From: a virus | Reading direction: 5' to 3' (one strand) | Length of the DNA: 21,743 nucleotides | IMG/VR virus record: IMGVR_UViG_3300045741_000243 | Span: 1 to 21,743 of that record | Part shown: positions 3-21,489 of the stretch, piece by piece | Layout: every line of letters begins with the position of its first letter | How positions within the stretch are numbered: position 1 is the stretch's first letter | Notes under the pieces: generated by a model | Told to the model about the DNA's origin: nothing | Database searches by the model: none | The model's input: the letters and a program-made list of their open reading frames with translations, nothing else | Position numbers and translations under genes: made by a program

Positions 3-122
3 CATGGAAAGGGAGCTTTGGCAGTGCCTTACCTGCTATCAAAAGGCTATCAGATAATTGAGAAGGCTTCTGATGACGGACTTTATTATGAAGGTTATGT
101 TCTATTAGGGAGGGGGCTATGA
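3..122 (+). CDS. 3' end of an unrecognised protein (partial)
   Basis: The reading frame is open from the left edge and stops at TGA 120-122, so only the last 39 residues are present. They include the stretch KGALAVPYLLSKGY and end in GYVLLGRGL. I do not recognise the family; it could be the tail of a sugar- or nucleotide-related enzyme, given what follows, but that is only context. Two things support it as coding: the frame runs in the direction of the downstream operon, and its end overlaps an AGGGGG-rich stretch that could serve as a ribosome binding site for what follows. No start is visible, so length and function are unknown. Confidence 0.45.
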   Translation, partial: HGKGALAVPYLLSKGYQIIEKASDDGLYYEGYVLLGRGL

Positions 123-135
123 AATTATATAGAGG

Positions 136-252
136 ATGGCAGAAAAGGCCAAATTAAAAGTAGGCAGTCTTAATCCTTTTTATGGAAAGAAACATTCAGA
201 AGAAACAAAACTAAAAATGTCAGAAGCAAGAAAAAGGAGGGCTTCATTATGA
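136..252 (+). CDS. orphan NUMOD3-type DNA-binding peptide (38 aa)
   Basis: A 38-residue frame whose core, NPFYGKKHSEETKLKMSEA, matches the NUMOD3 motif. That motif is a small helical DNA-binding element normally attached to GIY-YIG or HNH homing endonucleases. No nuclease domain is attached: the frame closes at 130-132 upstream and at TGA 250-252, overlapping the ATG of the next gene (ATGA). It is very basic (many Lys/Arg), which fits DNA binding. The only close Shine-Dalgarno-like bases are GAGG directly against the ATG, so initiation is uncertain; coupling from the preceding frame is possible. It may be a relic of a homing endonuclease or a functional stand-alone DNA-binding peptide. The motif match is strong; expression is an inference. 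Confidence 0.6.
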   Translation: MAEKAKLKVGSLNPFYGKKHSEETKLKMSEARKRRASL

Positions 253-1568
253 GTTCTGTTCGGTGTGGTTTTGTTGGATTGGGTAAATTAGGGTTGCCTG
301 TAGCATTGGCGATTAACTCTTATGGGTTTGAAGTTTGCGGCACAGATCTTGGGGATGGACCAAGAAAATATTTACTTAATAGAAAAATTCCTTACAAAGA
401 AGAATTAGCAGATGACCTACTGAAACTTCATACTATTAAATGGTTCGATAATATTGGGGAAATAATTAGTAATTCTGATGTAATCTTTATGCCCATTCAA
501 ACTCCCCACGATAAAAAGTATGAGGGAACTACCAAATTACCTCCTGAAAGGAAAGATTTTGATTATTCTTATTTGCGAAAAGCCGTTAGTGATTTTGTAG
601 TTCAAATGGCTTTGTCCAGTGACCCAAGTCCGAAAACATTAGTGATCATTTCTACTGTTTTACCTGGAACTCTCCGAAGAGAAATAATCCCTTTGATTAA
701 AGATGATAAAAGAATCAATTTGGTTTACAATCCTTTCTTTATTGCAATGGGGACAACTATCTATGATTTCTTGAATCCTGAGTTTGTATTGATTGGTATG
801 GATAAAGGAAGAGGATGGGAAAGTCTGTTGAATGTTTATTATAAAATCTACAATCAGCCTTTACTTAGAAATGATTCAGAAGGTAAAGCATTTAAAAATC
901 CTTTCTATCAAATCATGTCTATTGAATCAGCCGAATTGACCAAGGTAGCCTACAACACTTTCATAACCAGTAAGATTTGCATCGTTAATACCCTAATGGA
1001 AATCTGCCATAAAATTCCAGGGGCAAACATTGACGATGTTACCGGAGCTTTAAAAAATGCAACTAAAAGAATTGTGTCTACAGCTTATATGACTGGTGGG
1101 ATGGGTGACGGTGGTGGGTGCCACCCTCGTGATAACATCGCTATGTCTTGCCTTGCTAAAAGCCTTAATCTTTCATACGACTGGTTTGAAAATCTAATGA
1201 TCAGTAGGGAAAGACAAGCCTATTTCTTTGCTGATTTGGTTATGACAGAATACAATGAAGGAGATCAAGTTTATATTCTTGGTTATGAATTCAAACCAGA
1301 AACAAATTTAACTACTGGAAGCCATGCCCTTTTGGTTTATAATATTTTGTATGATGACATTCTAAGTGATGATCTTATCTTACTTCAAAGCGAAGGTTCA
1401 GAAAATCGTGTTTTTGAATGGCCGAAGGATGGGAAACATATAATCTTTATCGGTTGCAAACAACCAAAGTTTGCTAAATTTAGATTTAGAAGTGGGACAG
1501 TCGTTATAGATCCATTTCGTTACATCTCTGATCAACCAGGGGTGAAAGTGATCAGGGTGGGAGAATGA
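249..1568 (+). CDS. UDP-glucose/GDP-mannose dehydrogenase-family nucleotide-sugar dehydrogenase
   Basis: A 439-residue enzyme, about the usual length for the family, which oxidises the C6 alcohol of a nucleotide sugar to the uronate with two NAD+. The N-terminal Rossmann glycine motif is VGLGKLG (residues 9-15), followed by the acidic GTD. A STVLPGT strand-turn lies near 135-141 and YNPFF at 160-164. The central helix ESAELTKVAYNTF carries the expected Lys232 and Asn236. The catalytic-cysteine loop is GGGCHPRDNIA, with Cys291 and Asp295. The C-terminal third (from about VYILGYEFKP) fits the UDP-binding domain. The start is the ATG preceded by AAGGAGGG at 7 nt. It opens the sugar cassette and overlaps its downstream neighbour by ATGA. 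The exact substrate (UDP-Glc, UDP-ManNAc or another) cannot be read from the sequence. Family assignment is firm. Confidence 0.92.
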   Translation: MSSVRCGFVGLGKLGLPVALAINSYGFEVCGTDLGDGPRKYLLNRKIPYKEELADDLLKLHTIKWFDNIGEIISNSDVIFMPIQTPHDKKYEGTTKLPPERKDFDYSYLRKAVSDFVVQMALSSDPSPKTLVIISTVLPGTLRREIIPLIKDDKRINLVYNPFFIAMGTTIYDFLNPEFVLIGMDKGRGWESLLNVYYKIYNQPLLRNDSEGKAFKNPFYQIMSIESAELTKVAYNTFITSKICIVNTLMEICHKIPGANIDDVTGALKNATKRIVSTAYMTGGMGDGGGCHPRDNIAMSCLAKSLNLSYDWFENLMISRERQAYFFADLVMTEYNEGDQVYILGYEFKPETNLTTGSHALLVYNILYDDILSDDLILLQSEGSENRVFEWPKDGKHIIFIGCKQPKFAKFRFRSGTVVIDPFRYISDQPGVKVIRVGE

Positions 1569-1792
1569 TTTTCAAACCTACATTTCACGCTTGGTTAGTT
1601 TGGAGAACAATTGATATGCTGGCTGGTCAGCATCATTTAACCATAGATGAAATTGAGGAAGGAATCGCTCTTTATGTTAAAACGATTCAAGAGAAAAATT
1701 TAATAGTGATGGCTCCCGAGTTTACCAGATCGCTTGTAAGAGCTGGAACACCAGTAGAATCCAAGGAGGACTCATGTTGCTTAGTGGAATAG
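1565..1792 (+). CDS. small uncharacterised protein in sugar operon (75 aa)
   Basis: I do not recognise this protein. It is 75 residues, soluble-looking, with a probable helical N-terminal half (WRTIDMLAGQHHLTIDEIEE) and a short tail with adjacent cysteines (SCC). Its ATG overlaps the stop of the dehydrogenase (ATGA) behind a GGGAG stretch, and its end overlaps the start of the following glycosyltransferase by 19 bp. This tight nesting indicates translational coupling and argues that it is a real gene. Its position between two sugar enzymes suggests an accessory role, but no motif supports any specific function. Confidence 0.72.
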   Translation: MIFKPTFHAWLVWRTIDMLAGQHHLTIDEIEEGIALYVKTIQEKNLIVMAPEFTRSLVRAGTPVESKEDSCCLVE

Positions 1793-2565
1793 GAAAAATT
1801 TGGAACTGTAACAAATATCATTTCCCATTGGATTTATCAATAGAATCCGTCCTTGATGGAGCGGATGAATTTGTATTAGCAGTTTGTTTAGACTCAGAAG
1901 ATGACACCGTAGAATACTGCAAAAAACTTCAAGAAAAATATAAAGGAAAATTAAAATTAGTCTTCTCAAATTGGAGAGAAAATCCAGAAGAAGGCAAGTA
2001 CACAATGCGTAGACTTGCTGATCTTGCAATCGAAGAATCACAAGGAAAATGGTTTGTCTCAGTTGATATGGACGAAGTTTACAGCGTCGGGGAAGCAAAA
2101 GGATTGAGAAACTATTTAGAAAAATTGCCTGATGAAATTGGGGCCGTGGCTGTAAATTTCTTTCATCATTATATTGATATTGATACAATCATAATGGGCA
2201 AACTATACGATTCATCCATACGAGTTGCAAAGAAACACTATGGATGGCGCAGTTATGATGACGGTTTTGGTATCACAGGGGGGGCAGGGAGAACCATTAC
2301 ATCCCCTTGTCTGGTTAACCATTATGGATTTGTTAGGGATTTAAAGATTGCCATAGACAAAGAGTTACGTTTTCAAACTGACTTATACAAGCCTTTACAT
2401 AGTGAATTCCCCGATCCACGATTAGAACAATTCAAACAAGCAAAAATCTCCAAGCAAGAATTTTATAAAGGTATGATGGGGCCAGATGATTTATTAGTTC
2501 CTTATGAACGACTGCATTGGCCGGGTGTAAAAGAATGGTACGAAAATATACAGGAGAACAACTAA
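1774..2565 (+). CDS. GT2-like (GT-A fold) glycosyltransferase
   Basis: A 263-residue protein with the hallmarks of a metal-dependent GT-A glycosyltransferase. An N-terminal alpha/beta half contains a strand-turn (ADEFVLAVCLDSEDDT, residues 30-45), then KWFVSVDMDEVY, where Asp98-Met-Asp100 is the DxD motif that binds the nucleotide-sugar diphosphate through Mn2+/Mg2+. Later aromatic and histidine-rich stretches (NFFHHYIDID; NHYGFVRDLK) probably shape the acceptor site. The start is fixed by AAGGAGGA at 1763-1770, 3 nt before the ATG, inside the upstream gene. There is no membrane segment, so it should act in the cytoplasm. The donor sugar and acceptor are unknown. It is related in type to short phage glycosyltransferases that lack the processive domains of polysaccharide synthases. 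Confidence 0.85.
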   Translation: MLLSGIGKIWNCNKYHFPLDLSIESVLDGADEFVLAVCLDSEDDTVEYCKKLQEKYKGKLKLVFSNWRENPEEGKYTMRRLADLAIEESQGKWFVSVDMDEVYSVGEAKGLRNYLEKLPDEIGAVAVNFFHHYIDIDTIIMGKLYDSSIRVAKKHYGWRSYDDGFGITGGAGRTITSPCLVNHYGFVRDLKIAIDKELRFQTDLYKPLHSEFPDPRLEQFKQAKISKQEFYKGMMGPDDLLVPYERLHWPGVKEWYENIQENN

Positions 2566-2747
2566 TGGAACGACCCGAATTTAAAGAATCTGATCCTTTG
2601 AGGATTAAAATGGTTTGTCTTGCTTTTAAAAACTGGATGAAAAATAACAATATCGAACTCTACGAAGTTACAAGAGCAATAGCACTACTTGATCGTGAAA
2701 ATGAAGAGAACCAAGCAAAAAGAACATTTGAAGAAAAGAGTCACTAA
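2565..2747 (+). CDS. small uncharacterised charged protein (60 aa)
   Basis: Not recognised. The ATG at 2565 overlaps the glycosyltransferase stop (TAATG) and follows AGGAG about 9 nt upstream. This start is preferred over an in-frame one further upstream that would lie inside the glycosyltransferase. The 60 residues are highly charged and probably all-helical (LRIKMVCLAFKNWMKN; ALLDRENEENQAKRTFEEK), with no cysteine pairs, membrane segment or known motif. It may be a small binding or adaptor protein. Nested overlaps on both sides (TAATG at each end) show that it belongs to the same transcription and translation unit. Confidence 0.7.
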   Translation: MERPEFKESDPLRIKMVCLAFKNWMKNNNIELYEVTRAIALLDRENEENQAKRTFEEKSH

Positions 2748-2977
2748 TGTGGCTGTGGATCGATTGCCCAAAGTTCACTGTCCGAGTTGAATGTGATAAA
2801 GACGATAAAATTAAAACTTTACCTCCAATCTTGGTAAAACGATACAAAAATTTCTTTGGGCAACCTTATAGAAGATTTATACACCAATTGCTTCACGATT
2901 ACACTTATTTGCCAGATTTAATAATTCAAGAATACGACAGCGATGGGTTTATAACGGAAAGGGGTTGGAGAAAATGA
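2747..2977 (+). CDS. small uncharacterised protein (76 aa)
   Basis: Not recognised. 76 residues beginning MWLWIDCPKF, rich in aromatic residues and alternating charged and hydrophobic stretches, probably beta strands first (FTVRVECD) and then a helical FIHQLLHDYTYL segment. Its ATG overlaps the preceding stop (TAATG), and its stop TGA overlaps the ATG of the methyltransferase (ATGA). The upstream Shine-Dalgarno is weak (AAAGAG), so translation probably depends on coupling. It is the third small unknown in this enzyme cassette. No function can be proposed from the sequence. Confidence 0.72.
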   Translation: MWLWIDCPKFTVRVECDKDDKIKTLPPILVKRYKNFFGQPYRRFIHQLLHDYTYLPDLIIQEYDSDGFITERGWRK

Positions 2978-3459
2978 AACTTGATATTGGTAGTGGTGGA
3001 CCAAGTACTTTAGGAGAAGGATGGTATGGGGTGGATCGTTTCATTGAATCCGCTGATTATCATTGGGCTATGGACAAATTAGAAATTGAAGATGAGTCTG
3101 TCGATGAAATTTATTCATGCCATGCTTTAGAACATATTTCCAGACACCAAGTAATTCCTACCCTGACTGAATGGCGAAGAGTGTTAAAATGGGGGGGTAA
3201 ATTAACCATTCTCGTTCCTAATATGGAATTTTGTTTAAGCGTTATGATGGAAGCGTGTCACAAACAAGATGCAGAATATTGGGATTGGCGCAGTTGTTGG
3301 ATTTACGGTAAACAAGATCATCCCGGTAATTTTCACAATTGTGGGTATTCTCCTTGGATGTTAGATCATTATTTAAAATCTGTCGGATTTAATATAAAAC
3401 ATCGAACGATTTGTATAGTGCATGACTGTGAAACTTTGAATTGGGAGGCTTACAAATGA
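2974..3459 (+). CDS. class I SAM-dependent methyltransferase
   Basis: A 161-residue Methyltransf_11-type fold. Motif I is LDIGSGG (residues 3-9), which binds S-adenosylmethionine. The acidic Asp21 in YGVDRF sits where the ribose-binding residue is expected. DEIYSCHALEHI (44-55) corresponds to motif IV, and EWRRVLKWGGKLTILVPN to the post-motif strand typical of the family. The start is ATG 2974, which overlaps the previous stop (ATGA) with AAGGGG 9 nt upstream; a TTG three codons earlier is possible. The protein is short, lacking the extra substrate-binding domain of many members. With neighbours that make and transfer sugars, it could methylate a sugar or a glycosylated acceptor, but protein or small-molecule substrates are equally open. 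Confidence 0.88.
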   Translation: MKLDIGSGGPSTLGEGWYGVDRFIESADYHWAMDKLEIEDESVDEIYSCHALEHISRHQVIPTLTEWRRVLKWGGKLTILVPNMEFCLSVMMEACHKQDAEYWDWRSCWIYGKQDHPGNFHNCGYSPWMLDHYLKSVGFNIKHRTICIVHDCETLNWEAYK

Positions 3460-4247
3460 TTTATGATTGCTTCATGTTTGGTTGGGAAATGGATTTACTG
3501 GAAATCCGATTGAATCATTTATATGATCATGTTGACTTTTTCGTATTATCTGAAGCAACGGTAACGCATGCAGGAAATCCCAAACCGTTGTTTTTTCAAG
3601 AAAATCAAAAGCGGTATGAAAAATTTCTTGATAAAATAATTCACATCGTAGTCGAGGATATGCCCGTTGATATTGCAAAAGAACGAGGAAACCGATGGGT
3701 GTTGGAAAACTTTCAAAGAAATACTTTAAAAGATGGCTTGCGTAATTTACAAGATAATGATATGGTAATGATAAGCGATTTGGATGAAATACCAAGTCTC
3801 GAAGCAGTTGGAAAACATGGGGTATTCATTCAAATACCTTATATGTATTATTTGAATGTTCGAGCTGGTGGGGATTGGCCCGGGACTGTTTCAATGACTT
3901 ACAGAGAATTTCGTGACCAATGGGGAAGTCTCGGACAAAACCTACGAGATCAACGAAATATGTATCCTTTAAAAGTTCCAAATGGTGGATGGCATTTTGG
4001 ATGGCTTGGTGGGTATGACATGGTAAAGTATAAAGTGGAATCCTTTGCTCATGGTGAATTTGACAATCCTACCTACCATGGAGAATTGAAGGAAGATGTA
4101 AAACTAATTCGACCTTTCTTTTTAGGAAGTGGAAAATCATCTATGCCAGTAGTTGATATAGATGAAACATACCCAAAATTTTTATTGGAAAATTTGTCAA
4201 AATATCAACATTTGGTTTTTCAAAGGGAATTAGTTGACCAAGGCTGA
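3456..4247 (+). CDS. GT17-family glycosyltransferase (MGAT3-like fold)
   Basis: A 263-residue protein matching glycosyltransferase family 17, whose eukaryotic members are beta-1,4-GlcNAc transferases. The typical opening is MIYDCFMFGWEMDLLEIRL, followed by DFFVLSEATVTHAGNPKPL. An ENFQRN motif precedes DNDMVMISDLDEIPS, in which Asp108-Leu-Asp110-Glu is the metal/nucleotide-sugar site. GGWHFGWLGG near 175-185 is another family-type block. The start is ATG 3456, with GGGAGG at 3443-3448; an in-frame TTG at 3441 is less likely because the SD overlaps it. The start overlaps the methyltransferase stop (ATGA). It is a cytoplasmic, soluble enzyme, being without a signal or membrane segment. Bacterial and phage GT17 acceptors are mostly uncharacterised, so the sugar transferred and the target are unknown. 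Confidence 0.9.
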   Translation: MIYDCFMFGWEMDLLEIRLNHLYDHVDFFVLSEATVTHAGNPKPLFFQENQKRYEKFLDKIIHIVVEDMPVDIAKERGNRWVLENFQRNTLKDGLRNLQDNDMVMISDLDEIPSLEAVGKHGVFIQIPYMYYLNVRAGGDWPGTVSMTYREFRDQWGSLGQNLRDQRNMYPLKVPNGGWHFGWLGGYDMVKYKVESFAHGEFDNPTYHGELKEDVKLIRPFFLGSGKSSMPVVDIDETYPKFLLENLSKYQHLVFQRELVDQG

Positions 4248-4797
4248 TCAATGTTATTGCAAAGAGGAAATTATAAAGTATTTAGCCGCACCAGAGGGTT
4301 TGGAAAAGGACACTATACGAAATAATTTGTTCCTCTTTATGGAAAAAGAACTTGGGAATTGGGTCAAATCAATTCTTAATTCCCTTGGTGTATTCTCCAC
4401 AAAACAGTTAGTTTTAAGCCTATCATGGGACTGTTTCGTTTATTGTCTCCATACTTATAGAAAATTGGAAGTCCCCCTGGGCTTCCATTTTTATCGTAAT
4501 AGTAGATACTGCATATTAAAAGACCTTAGAACTAAAAAATCACAGTCGATAATATCATACGGAGAATTTGAAATAACGGCAGATAGGCAAGATGAAGCAA
4601 AGTTTCTTGACTTAAAAGATTTTGTTCACCATTTACCAGAAAAGTACAAACCAGTATTTCAAGACGCCGTCATGTCAATGTATCATGGCAGCAGAGCAAG
4701 GAGTAAAGTAAATTGGAATAAAGAAGAAATGAATTATGTTGAATATAAAAGTGTTAAAGCAGTTCTTATTAGCGTCATTTCATATTTAACACATTAA
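4234..4797 (+). CDS. putative divergent sigma-factor-like protein (187 aa)
   Basis: A basic 187-residue protein of T4-gp55-like size. The middle segment, SWDCFVYCLHTYRKL then FHFYRNSRYCILKDLRTKK (about residues 64-102), has the pattern of sigma region 2: a helix, an aromatic turn, then a basic helix ending in DLR-K. The C-terminus, LPEKYKPVFQDAVMSM followed by EEMNYVEYKSVKAVLISVI, resembles region 4 with a helix-turn-helix-like end. The start is most likely TTG 4234, with AAGGGA about 6-7 nt upstream and a 14-bp overlap with the GT17 gene; the first in-frame ATG would cut off about 35 residues of the leader. It is the last gene of the plus-strand operon and could direct late transcription of the tail genes. 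The similarity is by pattern only; another DNA-binding protein is possible. Confidence 0.45.
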   Translation: MTKADQCYCKEEIIKYLAAPEGLEKDTIRNNLFLFMEKELGNWVKSILNSLGVFSTKQLVLSLSWDCFVYCLHTYRKLEVPLGFHFYRNSRYCILKDLRTKKSQSIISYGEFEITADRQDEAKFLDLKDFVHHLPEKYKPVFQDAVMSMYHGSRARSKVNWNKEEMNYVEYKSVKAVLISVISYLTH

Positions 4798-4805: not shown

Positions 4806-5147
4806 TTATCTCTTTAATTTTGCTCTCCAAATTTCTGAATCTTCCACTACCTTCATGTTAAAATCACGATAGTTCCCCAAATGGCCGAAGAACAAATGAC
4901 AAATTACTCCTCTCTTTTTACTCTCGCAAAGAGTGATCAAATTGCTCAATTCAAGTTCAAGATCGGGTCTATATTGAAAAGGAATTTTGTGGTGGACCTC
5001 TAATTTTTCACCACCACCACAAACGGCACAAGTAGAAAATTCCTGTAAGTAAGCCTTTCTAATCTTCAGCCATTCAGAGGCTCTTCTTTCAAACAGGTAA
5101 CTTTTACCTTGAAATATATCTTTTATTCTTTTGAAAGATTTTATCAA
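4806..5147 (-). CDS. HNH endonuclease
   Basis: A 113-residue HNH nuclease of the type common in phage genomes. It has CAVC (Cys40, Cys43), the LEVHHKIPF block with His52-His53, the middle Asn69 in LELSNLITLC, and a distal C-H pair in CHLFFGHLGNY (Cys83, His84, His89). The cysteines and the HH supply structural zinc and the metal-dependent catalytic site. The start given is TTG 5147, with AAAGGA about 11 nt upstream; an ATG just upstream is in another frame and stops after four codons. As the last gene of the minus-strand module it lies far from any visible terminase gene, where such HNH proteins often act in packaging. It could instead be a free-standing homing endonuclease or a general nicking enzyme. 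Family assignment is strong, role uncertain. Confidence 0.9.
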   Translation of the reverse strand: MIKSFKRIKDIFQGKSYLFERRASEWLKIRKAYLQEFSTCAVCGGGEKLEVHHKIPFQYRPDLELELSNLITLCESKKRGVICHLFFGHLGNYRDFNMKVVEDSEIWRAKLKR

Positions 5148-18613: not shown

Positions 18614-19588
18614 TTAATACGTTGCTAAACTATCAACAAGGACAGCACGACACGCACTTGCATCAATATCGTCCCCATAGTAAGCCTCGAAATCCAGACT
18701 TACAAACAAACCAGTAGGACCTTCAACAACAGGAGCAGCAGGCTTGTAAACTAACTCATCAAAATAGAAAATCAGTTTCTCATTTCCACTAGTTCCTGCA
18801 CCAGTTCCCTTCGTAAGTGTAATAACTAGGCTACTTTCTGAATGGGCAATGGCCTTGTTATACATAGCAACGGAGTCAAACAGACACTTAACATTCCCCG
18901 TTACTTTTGCAAAACCTTCGGGCATGGAATACCGCTCACCAGTTCCATCAATAACGTAGGTACTTCCGTCCAAACCATTGTCCAACGAAAAATTAATTTC
19001 AGTTCCAATAGCAAGAGACGAACCACCTTCTAAAATGGTACATTCAAAACCATCAAAAGGAGTGTGACCCCGATCAGTCGGATTCGGATCAAACGTACCA
19101 CCAAAACCTGTTGCAACGGTTTCCTTTGCACCAATAATATCTACGGAACCAGTAATCATTCCCTCAGGTCGAATGGCTACCTTAAAACTGTTGACTTTAC
19201 AACCATTGTACCTAAACCAAGTAGGAGTGGCAAGATCAGGGAAATATTTTTCAATTACCATACCAGCAGGCAAATCCCCAATTTTATACGTGTGGTAATA
19301 CGGGGAAGAACCAGTGGTTACAGTAGTCCCAAAAATATGCTTCAAAAGCAAACCATATTGAGGAGCCAATTCAAATTCAACCCCACCAGACACATCACGA
19401 TTTCCACGAACCGGCATTTGAGGATTTCTACTTGAACGAATTGTGTTCGAAGAAATCAAATTCCGATTCATTCGCAAACTCTCTCGAACATAAGGCATAA
19501 TTCGAGAAGTTCCAGAAGCAGGACTCGTTTTAAAAACAGATTCAGTATCGTAACTTAGCCTAACCGTAGTACCTCTTTGCTGAGCCAT
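18614..19588 (-). CDS. major tail tube protein
   Basis: A 324-residue tail tube subunit resembling the Phage_tube_2 family. The N-terminal motif RMNRNLISSNTIRSSRNPQM followed by PVRGNRDVSGGVEFELAP is a characteristic block of this family. The body is beta-rich with glycine turns, consistent with the tube fold that polymerises into hexameric rings. It has a strong GGGAGG before the ATG and lies between the tail terminator and G genes, as expected. It should be the most abundant tail protein in virions. Confidence 0.92.
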   Translation of the reverse strand: MAQQRGTTVRLSYDTESVFKTSPASGTSRIMPYVRESLRMNRNLISSNTIRSSRNPQMPVRGNRDVSGGVEFELAPQYGLLLKHIFGTTVTTGSSPYYHTYKIGDLPAGMVIEKYFPDLATPTWFRYNGCKVNSFKVAIRPEGMITGSVDIIGAKETVATGFGGTFDPNPTDRGHTPFDGFECTILEGGSSLAIGTEINFSLDNGLDGSTYVIDGTGERYSMPEGFAKVTGNVKCLFDSVAMYNKAIAHSESSLVITLTKGTGAGTSGNEKLIFYFDELVYKPAAPVVEGPTGLFVSLDFEAYYGDDIDASACRAVLVDSLATY

Positions 19589-21246: not shown

Positions 21247-21353
21247 TACTTTTTACCACCTTTTTTCTTCTTGTTTTTAGGTCGTCCACCAGTAACTAAT
21301 GGTTCCATATTCTTCTTAGGAGCTTTCTTCTTGTTTCCTGCTTTTTTTGCCAT
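21246..21353 (-). CDS. small lysine-rich protein (35 aa)
   Basis: 35 residues beginning MAKKAGNKKKAPKKN and ending in a lysine/glycine-rich tail; almost half are lysine. It has AAAGGAG before the ATG. Its stop overlaps the connector start (TAATG), and its start overlaps the zinc-ribbon gene by 38 bp in another frame. Very basic peptides of this kind could bind DNA or RNA, but no family is recognised. The good RBS and coupling favour a real gene over chance. Confidence 0.6.
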   Translation of the reverse strand: MAKKAGNKKKAPKKNMEPLVTGGRPKNKKKKGGKK

Positions 21354-21489
21354 AGAATTCTCCTTTATACTCATCTTTTAATGTTTGAGTGTAGGAAGTT
21401 TCCCACCTACGAAAACAGTTCAAACAAATTGACTGCCATTCTATCTGCGTAGTTTCAGAATCACAAAAGGGACATCGGATAGTTGTCAT
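21316..21489 (-). CDS. small zinc-ribbon protein (57 aa)
   Basis: 57 residues with two CxxC pairs: CPFC near residue 6 and CLNC near residue 22, then RRWET, a typical zinc-ribbon arrangement. The tail is basic and Gln/Glu-rich. An AGGAGG (21499-21504) abuts the muramidase stop and lies 9 nt before the ATG; a nearer out-of-frame ATG gives only a 10-codon peptide. Short zinc ribbons in phages often bind nucleic acid or RNA polymerase, but the partner here is unknown. Confidence 0.72.
   Translation of the reverse strand: MTTIRCPFCDSETTQIEWQSICLNCFRRWETSYTQTLKDEYKGEFYGKKSRKQEESS

Follow-up and report, generated by a model that had tools for sequence, protein, structure and literature searches.

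Introduction

Phage cassettes that bring together enzymes of sugar activation and transfer are already known from pelagiphages, cyanophages, and Bacillus phage SP-15. In pelagimyophages, a nucleotide-sugar dehydrogenase (UGD) and glycosyltransferases have been interpreted as modifying the O-chain (PMC7029224). A phage UGD can also serve DNA modification, as shown by SP-15 (PMC5977210), whose DNA carries phosphoglucuronate and glucose. Here, we describe a related locus on a virus contig, IMGVR_UViG_3300045741_000243, whose whole length of 21,743 bases is the window analyzed in this study. The gene content of the window identifies the 3' portion of a phage glycan-modification cassette, with a core of three genes for UGD, a GT2-like glycosyltransferase with a GT-A fold (GT-A), and a family 17 glycosyltransferase (GT17). 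The same triad was found in two other phage records, L047 and L138. We read the cassette, with a probability of about one half, as a system that modifies a surface glycan of the host, with a lipid-linked polysaccharide intermediate as acceptor and an altered surface that lowers adsorption of competing phages. A first-pass annotation, made by a model from the sequence of the window alone, had taken phages to use single glycosyltransferases only, a view contradicted by the multi-gene sets annotated in phages Bellamy, HTVC008M, Sf-FS3, S-SSM7, and SP-15 (PMC7029224).

Results

The UGD gene (249..1568, on the + strand, as are all genes of the operon) encodes a member of the UDP-glucose/GDP-mannose dehydrogenase family. 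Its product matched PF03721 (E 1.4e-20, 74.1 bits, cut-off 27) and PF00984 (E 1.2e-15, 57.8 bits, cut-off 25.4) and contains Lys232, Asn236, Asp295, and Cys291, the latter within GDGGGCHPRD. The expected C-terminal domain PF03720 gave no Pfam match, although alignments with relatives extend to the C-terminus. For the GT-A protein (1774..2565, DMD at residues 98-100), evidence from the window protein alone was weak (20.4 bits against PF00535, below the cut-off of 23.3), but the L047 orthologue, at 57% identity, scored above that cut-off (24.8 bits), and DMD was invariant across three GT-A orthologues. A GT-A fold model from three sequences had a predicted local distance difference test score (pLDDT) of 41. 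The third core gene (3456..4247) encodes a GT17 protein (PF04724, E 1e-24, 87.7 bits, cut-off 26) with the motif SDLDEIP, for which a sequence search of the PDB yielded no solved relative. Animal members of GT17 have N-acetylglucosamine transfer activity. The gene directly upstream of GT17 (2974..3459) encodes an accessory class I S-adenosylmethionine (SAM)-dependent methyltransferase (Methyltransf_11, PF08241, 30.4 bits, cut-off 21.2), which matched no DNA methyltransferase family in Pfam. The four enzyme assignments of the first-pass annotation were thereby borne out.

That annotation had also tied its proposal beforehand to recurrence of the gene set in other phages. Searching viral contigs with UGD yielded 169 related stretches. 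When GT17, GT-A, and methyltransferase queries were run as single sequences, almost nothing was returned; alignment queries worked. In L047, a 64-kb phage record, UGD, GT-A, and GT17 occur in the same order as in the window, at 71, 57, and 44% identity, respectively. In L138, retrieved by the GT-A alignment scan, the order is again the same, at 70% (UGD, truncated by the contig end), 59, and 44% identity. The genes between the core genes differ. Between those of L047 lie a homing endonuclease gene and a gene without description, while those of L138 are separated by genes for a hexapeptide acyltransferase and a protein with a caspase fold. The window has the methyltransferase, which has no counterpart at its place in either of these cassettes. 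The proposal of a set that makes, transfers, and methylates a sugar therefore holds as a phage glycan-modification set, supported by the recurring triad, with methylation outside its conserved core. A fixed core with swapped middle genes would be expected for a glycan with a kept backbone and varying caps, the enzymatic roles being predicted from sequence. The caspase-fold protein inside the L138 glycan cassette is encoded at L138:980-1831 (Peptidase_C14, E 4.6e-31).

The triad of L047 is surrounded by genes for a UDP-galactopyranose mutase, a B12-radical SAM protein, and an HNH-NUMOD3 protein and by several genes without a Pfam match. A further glycan region of the L047 phage (L133:269-7607) contains three GT2 genes and GT29-like, second GT17, and Methyltransf_24 genes. 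Searching 50,697 deposited phage records revealed no relative of GT-A, and the UGD/GT-A/GT17 triad therefore appears to be undescribed there. A search of the published literature yielded nothing useful on GT17 in phages. Pairing of GT17 with this UGD as a general rule was rejected: among 79 GT17 phage loci, this UGD was nearby only in the L138 and L047 records, and GT17 was present in four of 42 UGD phage records.

The tail module of the window is present in L138 at 31-56% identity, whereas L047 and the window share no tail genes and have only two small proteins in common. Since UGD is equally similar in L047, with its unrelated tail, and in L138, with its related tail, the cassette was probably transferred from phage to phage. 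A zinc-ribbon-like small protein of the window (21316-21489) is 50% identical to that encoded at L047:12815-13003 in an otherwise different phage.

Alignment of 131 UGD members showed C291, K232, N236, and D295 in all of them. Solved enzymes carry NPEFLAEG where the window UGD has NPFFIAMG, so that both glutamates of the canonical NPEFLxEG motif are gone, and relatives have NPFFIAMG or NPYLIA(M/Q)G at this site. These glutamates are E161 and E165 of human UGDH, in which the first acts in thioester hydrolysis. A search of the published literature yielded nothing useful on this glutamate chemistry. As YNPFFIAM was one of the scan search patterns, invariance of NPFFIAM among the 131 sequences is partly a product of the scan, and it was rechecked on phages found by plain tblastn. 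Relatives retrieved in this way, Bellamy, HTVC008M, and AG-345-E15, showed NPYLIAMG or NPYLIAQG together with GDGG(G/A)CHPRDN. CHPRD was not among the search patterns, and its C, H, R, and D were present in all 131 aligned relatives. SP-15 and Yong-DA have canonical UGD motifs.

Cellular members of the UGD clade come from SAR11, thaumarchaea, Patescibacteria, Azospirillum, and elsewhere, and their neighbors include GT2, GT4, epimerase, GDP-mannose dehydratase, and FkbM methyltransferase genes. Across 57 non-redundant phage loci, the neighbors of UGD include genes for epimerases, GT2, GT4, GT11, GT29, methyltransferases, hexapeptide transferases, radical SAM proteins, and GLF. A quick UGD tree interleaved phage and cell sequences, with 11 label changes, at least seven of them forced by well-supported branches. 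This mixing, together with the homing-endonuclease genes and a NUMOD3 remnant among the genes, which are able to drive exchange, would suit a transient, largely non-adaptive load of polysaccharide genes acquired from hosts by recombination. The intact reading frames, the retained catalytic residues, and the order of UGD, GT-A, and GT17, maintained in three phages at 44-71% identity, make such a load very improbable.

A NAD synthase (NadE) gene was found within ~8 kb of UGD in 30 of 80 phage loci (e.g., L005, L009, L010, L011, L075, L220, L221, L223, and L225), a set that includes near-copies, so that 30 is not a number of independent events. No NadE gene was counted in either control set, comprising 77 GT17 phage loci lacking the triad and 49 UGD loci from cells. 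All five NadE proteins tested scored above the NCBIfam nadE cut-off. In Bellamy, HTVC008M, Sf-FS3, and S-SSM7, NadE adjoins UGD or lies one gene away. The part of the window cassette seen, truncated at its left end, has no NadE. A simple reading of this link is that NadE restores the NAD+ consumed by the dehydrogenase; amidation of the uronic acid by NadE is a speculative one. A wider reading, which we regard as unlikely, is that UGDs of this uncharacterized clade of phages, SAR11, archaea, and others, with their glutamates replaced, differ in product or mechanism from known UDP-glucose dehydrogenases, that the NadE partner in many phages either regenerates the cofactor or makes a uronamide, and that the window cassette is a small core-plus-decoration version of this system.

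The first-pass annotation had described a single operon, coupled by ATGA and TAATG overlaps, at 249-4247. The coupling is visible (ATGA at 1565, 2974, and 3456; TAATG at 2563-2567 and 2745-2749), with a further 19-base overlap at 1774, but the operon is larger. The start of a gene at 4234..4797 overlaps the end of GT17, and the bounds of the operon are a point beyond base 1, past the contig end, on the left and position 4797 on the right. Likely starts were corrected to ATG 2565, ATG 2974, and ATG 3456. Promoter- and terminator-like sites in the region were not more common than in shuffled sequence. One terminator-like hairpin with a T-rich tail (4466-4487) lies within the frame of the last gene; such sites are not above chance here.

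The product of this last gene matched no Pfam family. In its structural model, the first 100 residues mostly had pLDDT > 80, and the first 11 matches in a fold search were all sigma factors, mostly of the extracytoplasmic function (ECF) group, with a best E of 0.18 and none significant alone. L138 has a relative of this gene downstream of GT17, one small gene further on and followed by the terminase genes. These results point to a possible sigma-like protein with an ECF region 2-like fold in its first ~100 residues. As a lead, we suggest a transcription factor for late or cassette genes, one that may drive phage transcription.

Three small proteins of the operon (1565..1792, 75 residues; 2565..2747, 60 residues from ATG 2565; and 2747..2977, 76 residues) had been proposed as pathway-specific partners. 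They were not conserved: their best match to any relative in the fetched loci had E ≥ 0.8, and a role as conserved partners was not supported. L047 and L138 share another small protein after GT17, unlike the three of the window.

At the left end of the window, a truncated gene (3..122, + strand), of which only the C-terminal end is present, has a frame-3 translation (HGKGALAVPYLLSKGYQ...) that resembles, by eye, the end of the product of L047:7380-7991. This counterpart (203 residues) is encoded immediately upstream of UGD and matched no Pfam family; the two products are perhaps class I methyltransferases. A micro-open reading frame of 38 residues (136..252, + strand) carries a lone NUMOD3-like motif, NPFYGKKHSEETKLKMSEARK, and is, judged by its translation and by the intact HNH-NUMOD3 protein in the L047 cassette, probably the leftover of a homing endonuclease. 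An HNH endonuclease gene (4806-5147) lies at the junction of operon and tail module, and homing endonucleases appear to accompany cassettes of this type.

The operon converges head-on, near 4.8 kb, with genes on the - strand that form the tail module of a lambda-like siphophage (~5 to 21.7 kb) and encode a host-specificity protein J, tape measure, tail tube or minor tail protein, tail terminator, and head-tail adaptor. The nearest relative of this tail is L137 (90% identity in the protein encoded at 18614-19588), which stops short of the cassette.

Discussion

Modification of a surface polysaccharide was favored by the protein families present and by the chromosomal surroundings of cellular relatives, in agreement with the O-chain interpretation of the pelagimyophage genes (PMC7029224). 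In the proposed mechanism, the dehydrogenase would convert a host nucleoside diphosphate (NDP)-hexose to an NDP-uronic acid, and the two transferases would add this uronic acid and another sugar to a growing glycan at the cytoplasmic side of the membrane. The accessory enzyme would then cap the glycan, with a methyl group in the window and probably with an acyl group in L138. A lipid-linked intermediate of the host surface polysaccharide would be the most likely acceptor, and infected cells with a changed surface would be expected to adsorb competing phages more weakly.

Several observations weigh against this proposal. The window UGD scored 143.8 bits against TIGR03026, the NCBIfam nucleotide-sugar dehydrogenase model, under its cut-off of 189.8, which a cellular relative exceeds, and 112 bits of the 670 required for AglM. 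The absence of two canonical glutamates makes its predicted product, and even the full four-electron oxidation, uncertain. The part of the operon seen shows no gene for a membrane transferase, flippase, polymerase, or acceptor, and none of the operon proteins in that part has a strongly hydrophobic stretch, which sets them apart from serotype-converting gtr cassettes with their membrane flippase and membrane glucosyltransferase. Furthermore, the record is a fragment. Finally, a GT4 gene of the L138 phage (L218:7836-8807) lies between capsid-side and head-tail connector genes, a position that fits glycosylation of the virion equally.

In that alternative, the substrates would be capsid or tail proteins of the phage itself, which the enzymes would glycosylate and methylate in the cytoplasm, as is known from some mycobacteriophages. 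Both operon glycosyltransferases are predicted to be soluble, as all operon enzymes appear to be, an export part is absent, and the L138 cassette is directly upstream of the terminase genes. Soluble transferases are normal for envelope glycans too, and the cellular relatives of UGD sit among polysaccharide genes; we consider virion glycosylation possible but somewhat doubtful. Modification of the host surface remains our preferred reading.

Which phages infect next is decided by phage-made changes of the bacterial surface, and very little is known of the chemistry behind these changes in uncultivated phages. With the gene order fixed across its three-gene core and the decorating enzyme exchanged, the cassette gives a compact, expressible system in which to look for the acceptor. 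Moreover, the altered UGD active site and its link to NadE pose a directly testable enzyme question that is wider than this phage.

The likeness to mycobacteriophages, in which capsid and tail tube glycans are a precedent (cited in PMC12619734), lies in phage-encoded glycosyltransferases and is one of description, drawn from citations. GT17 proteins of Synechococcus phages RN05-S, S-B05, S-H68, and S-B43 belong to the same family as that of the window (32% identity over 96% of the protein); their set differs in that a relative of GT-A occurs in none of the deposited phage records searched.

The hypermodification cluster of SP-15 resembles the window cassette in joining UGD, glycosyltransferase, and HNH-NUMOD3 genes, to which it adds a uridylyltransferase, and SP-15 DNA bears glucuronolactone (PMC5977210). 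By analogy, the cassette could put a uronic acid and sugars on modified bases of DNA. The SP-15 UGD is just 27% identical to that of the window and canonical (NPEFLAEG, GFGGSCFPKD), and its cluster has phosphotransferase and base-modifying genes and DNA as its target (PMC5977210). A base-modifying gene of the thymidylate-synthase family was found in three of the 42 UGD phage records, which are possibly partial, and not in the 64-kb L047, and the window methyltransferase fits no DNA methyltransferase family. We consider DNA hypermodification improbable and retain a host surface glycan as the more plausible target.

Pelagimyophage HTVC008M and cyanophages Bellamy, Sf-FS3, and S-SSM7 resemble the window in carrying UGD, glycosyltransferases, and methyltransferases in one directional run, and the UGDs of HTVC008M and Bellamy belong to the same GDGG(G/A)CHPRDN clade. 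Unlike the window, these are large myophages with NadE at or near UGD and with carbamoyltransferase or GT11 genes, whereas the window is a lambda-like siphophage fragment, without NadE in the part seen and with GT17 in its cassette.

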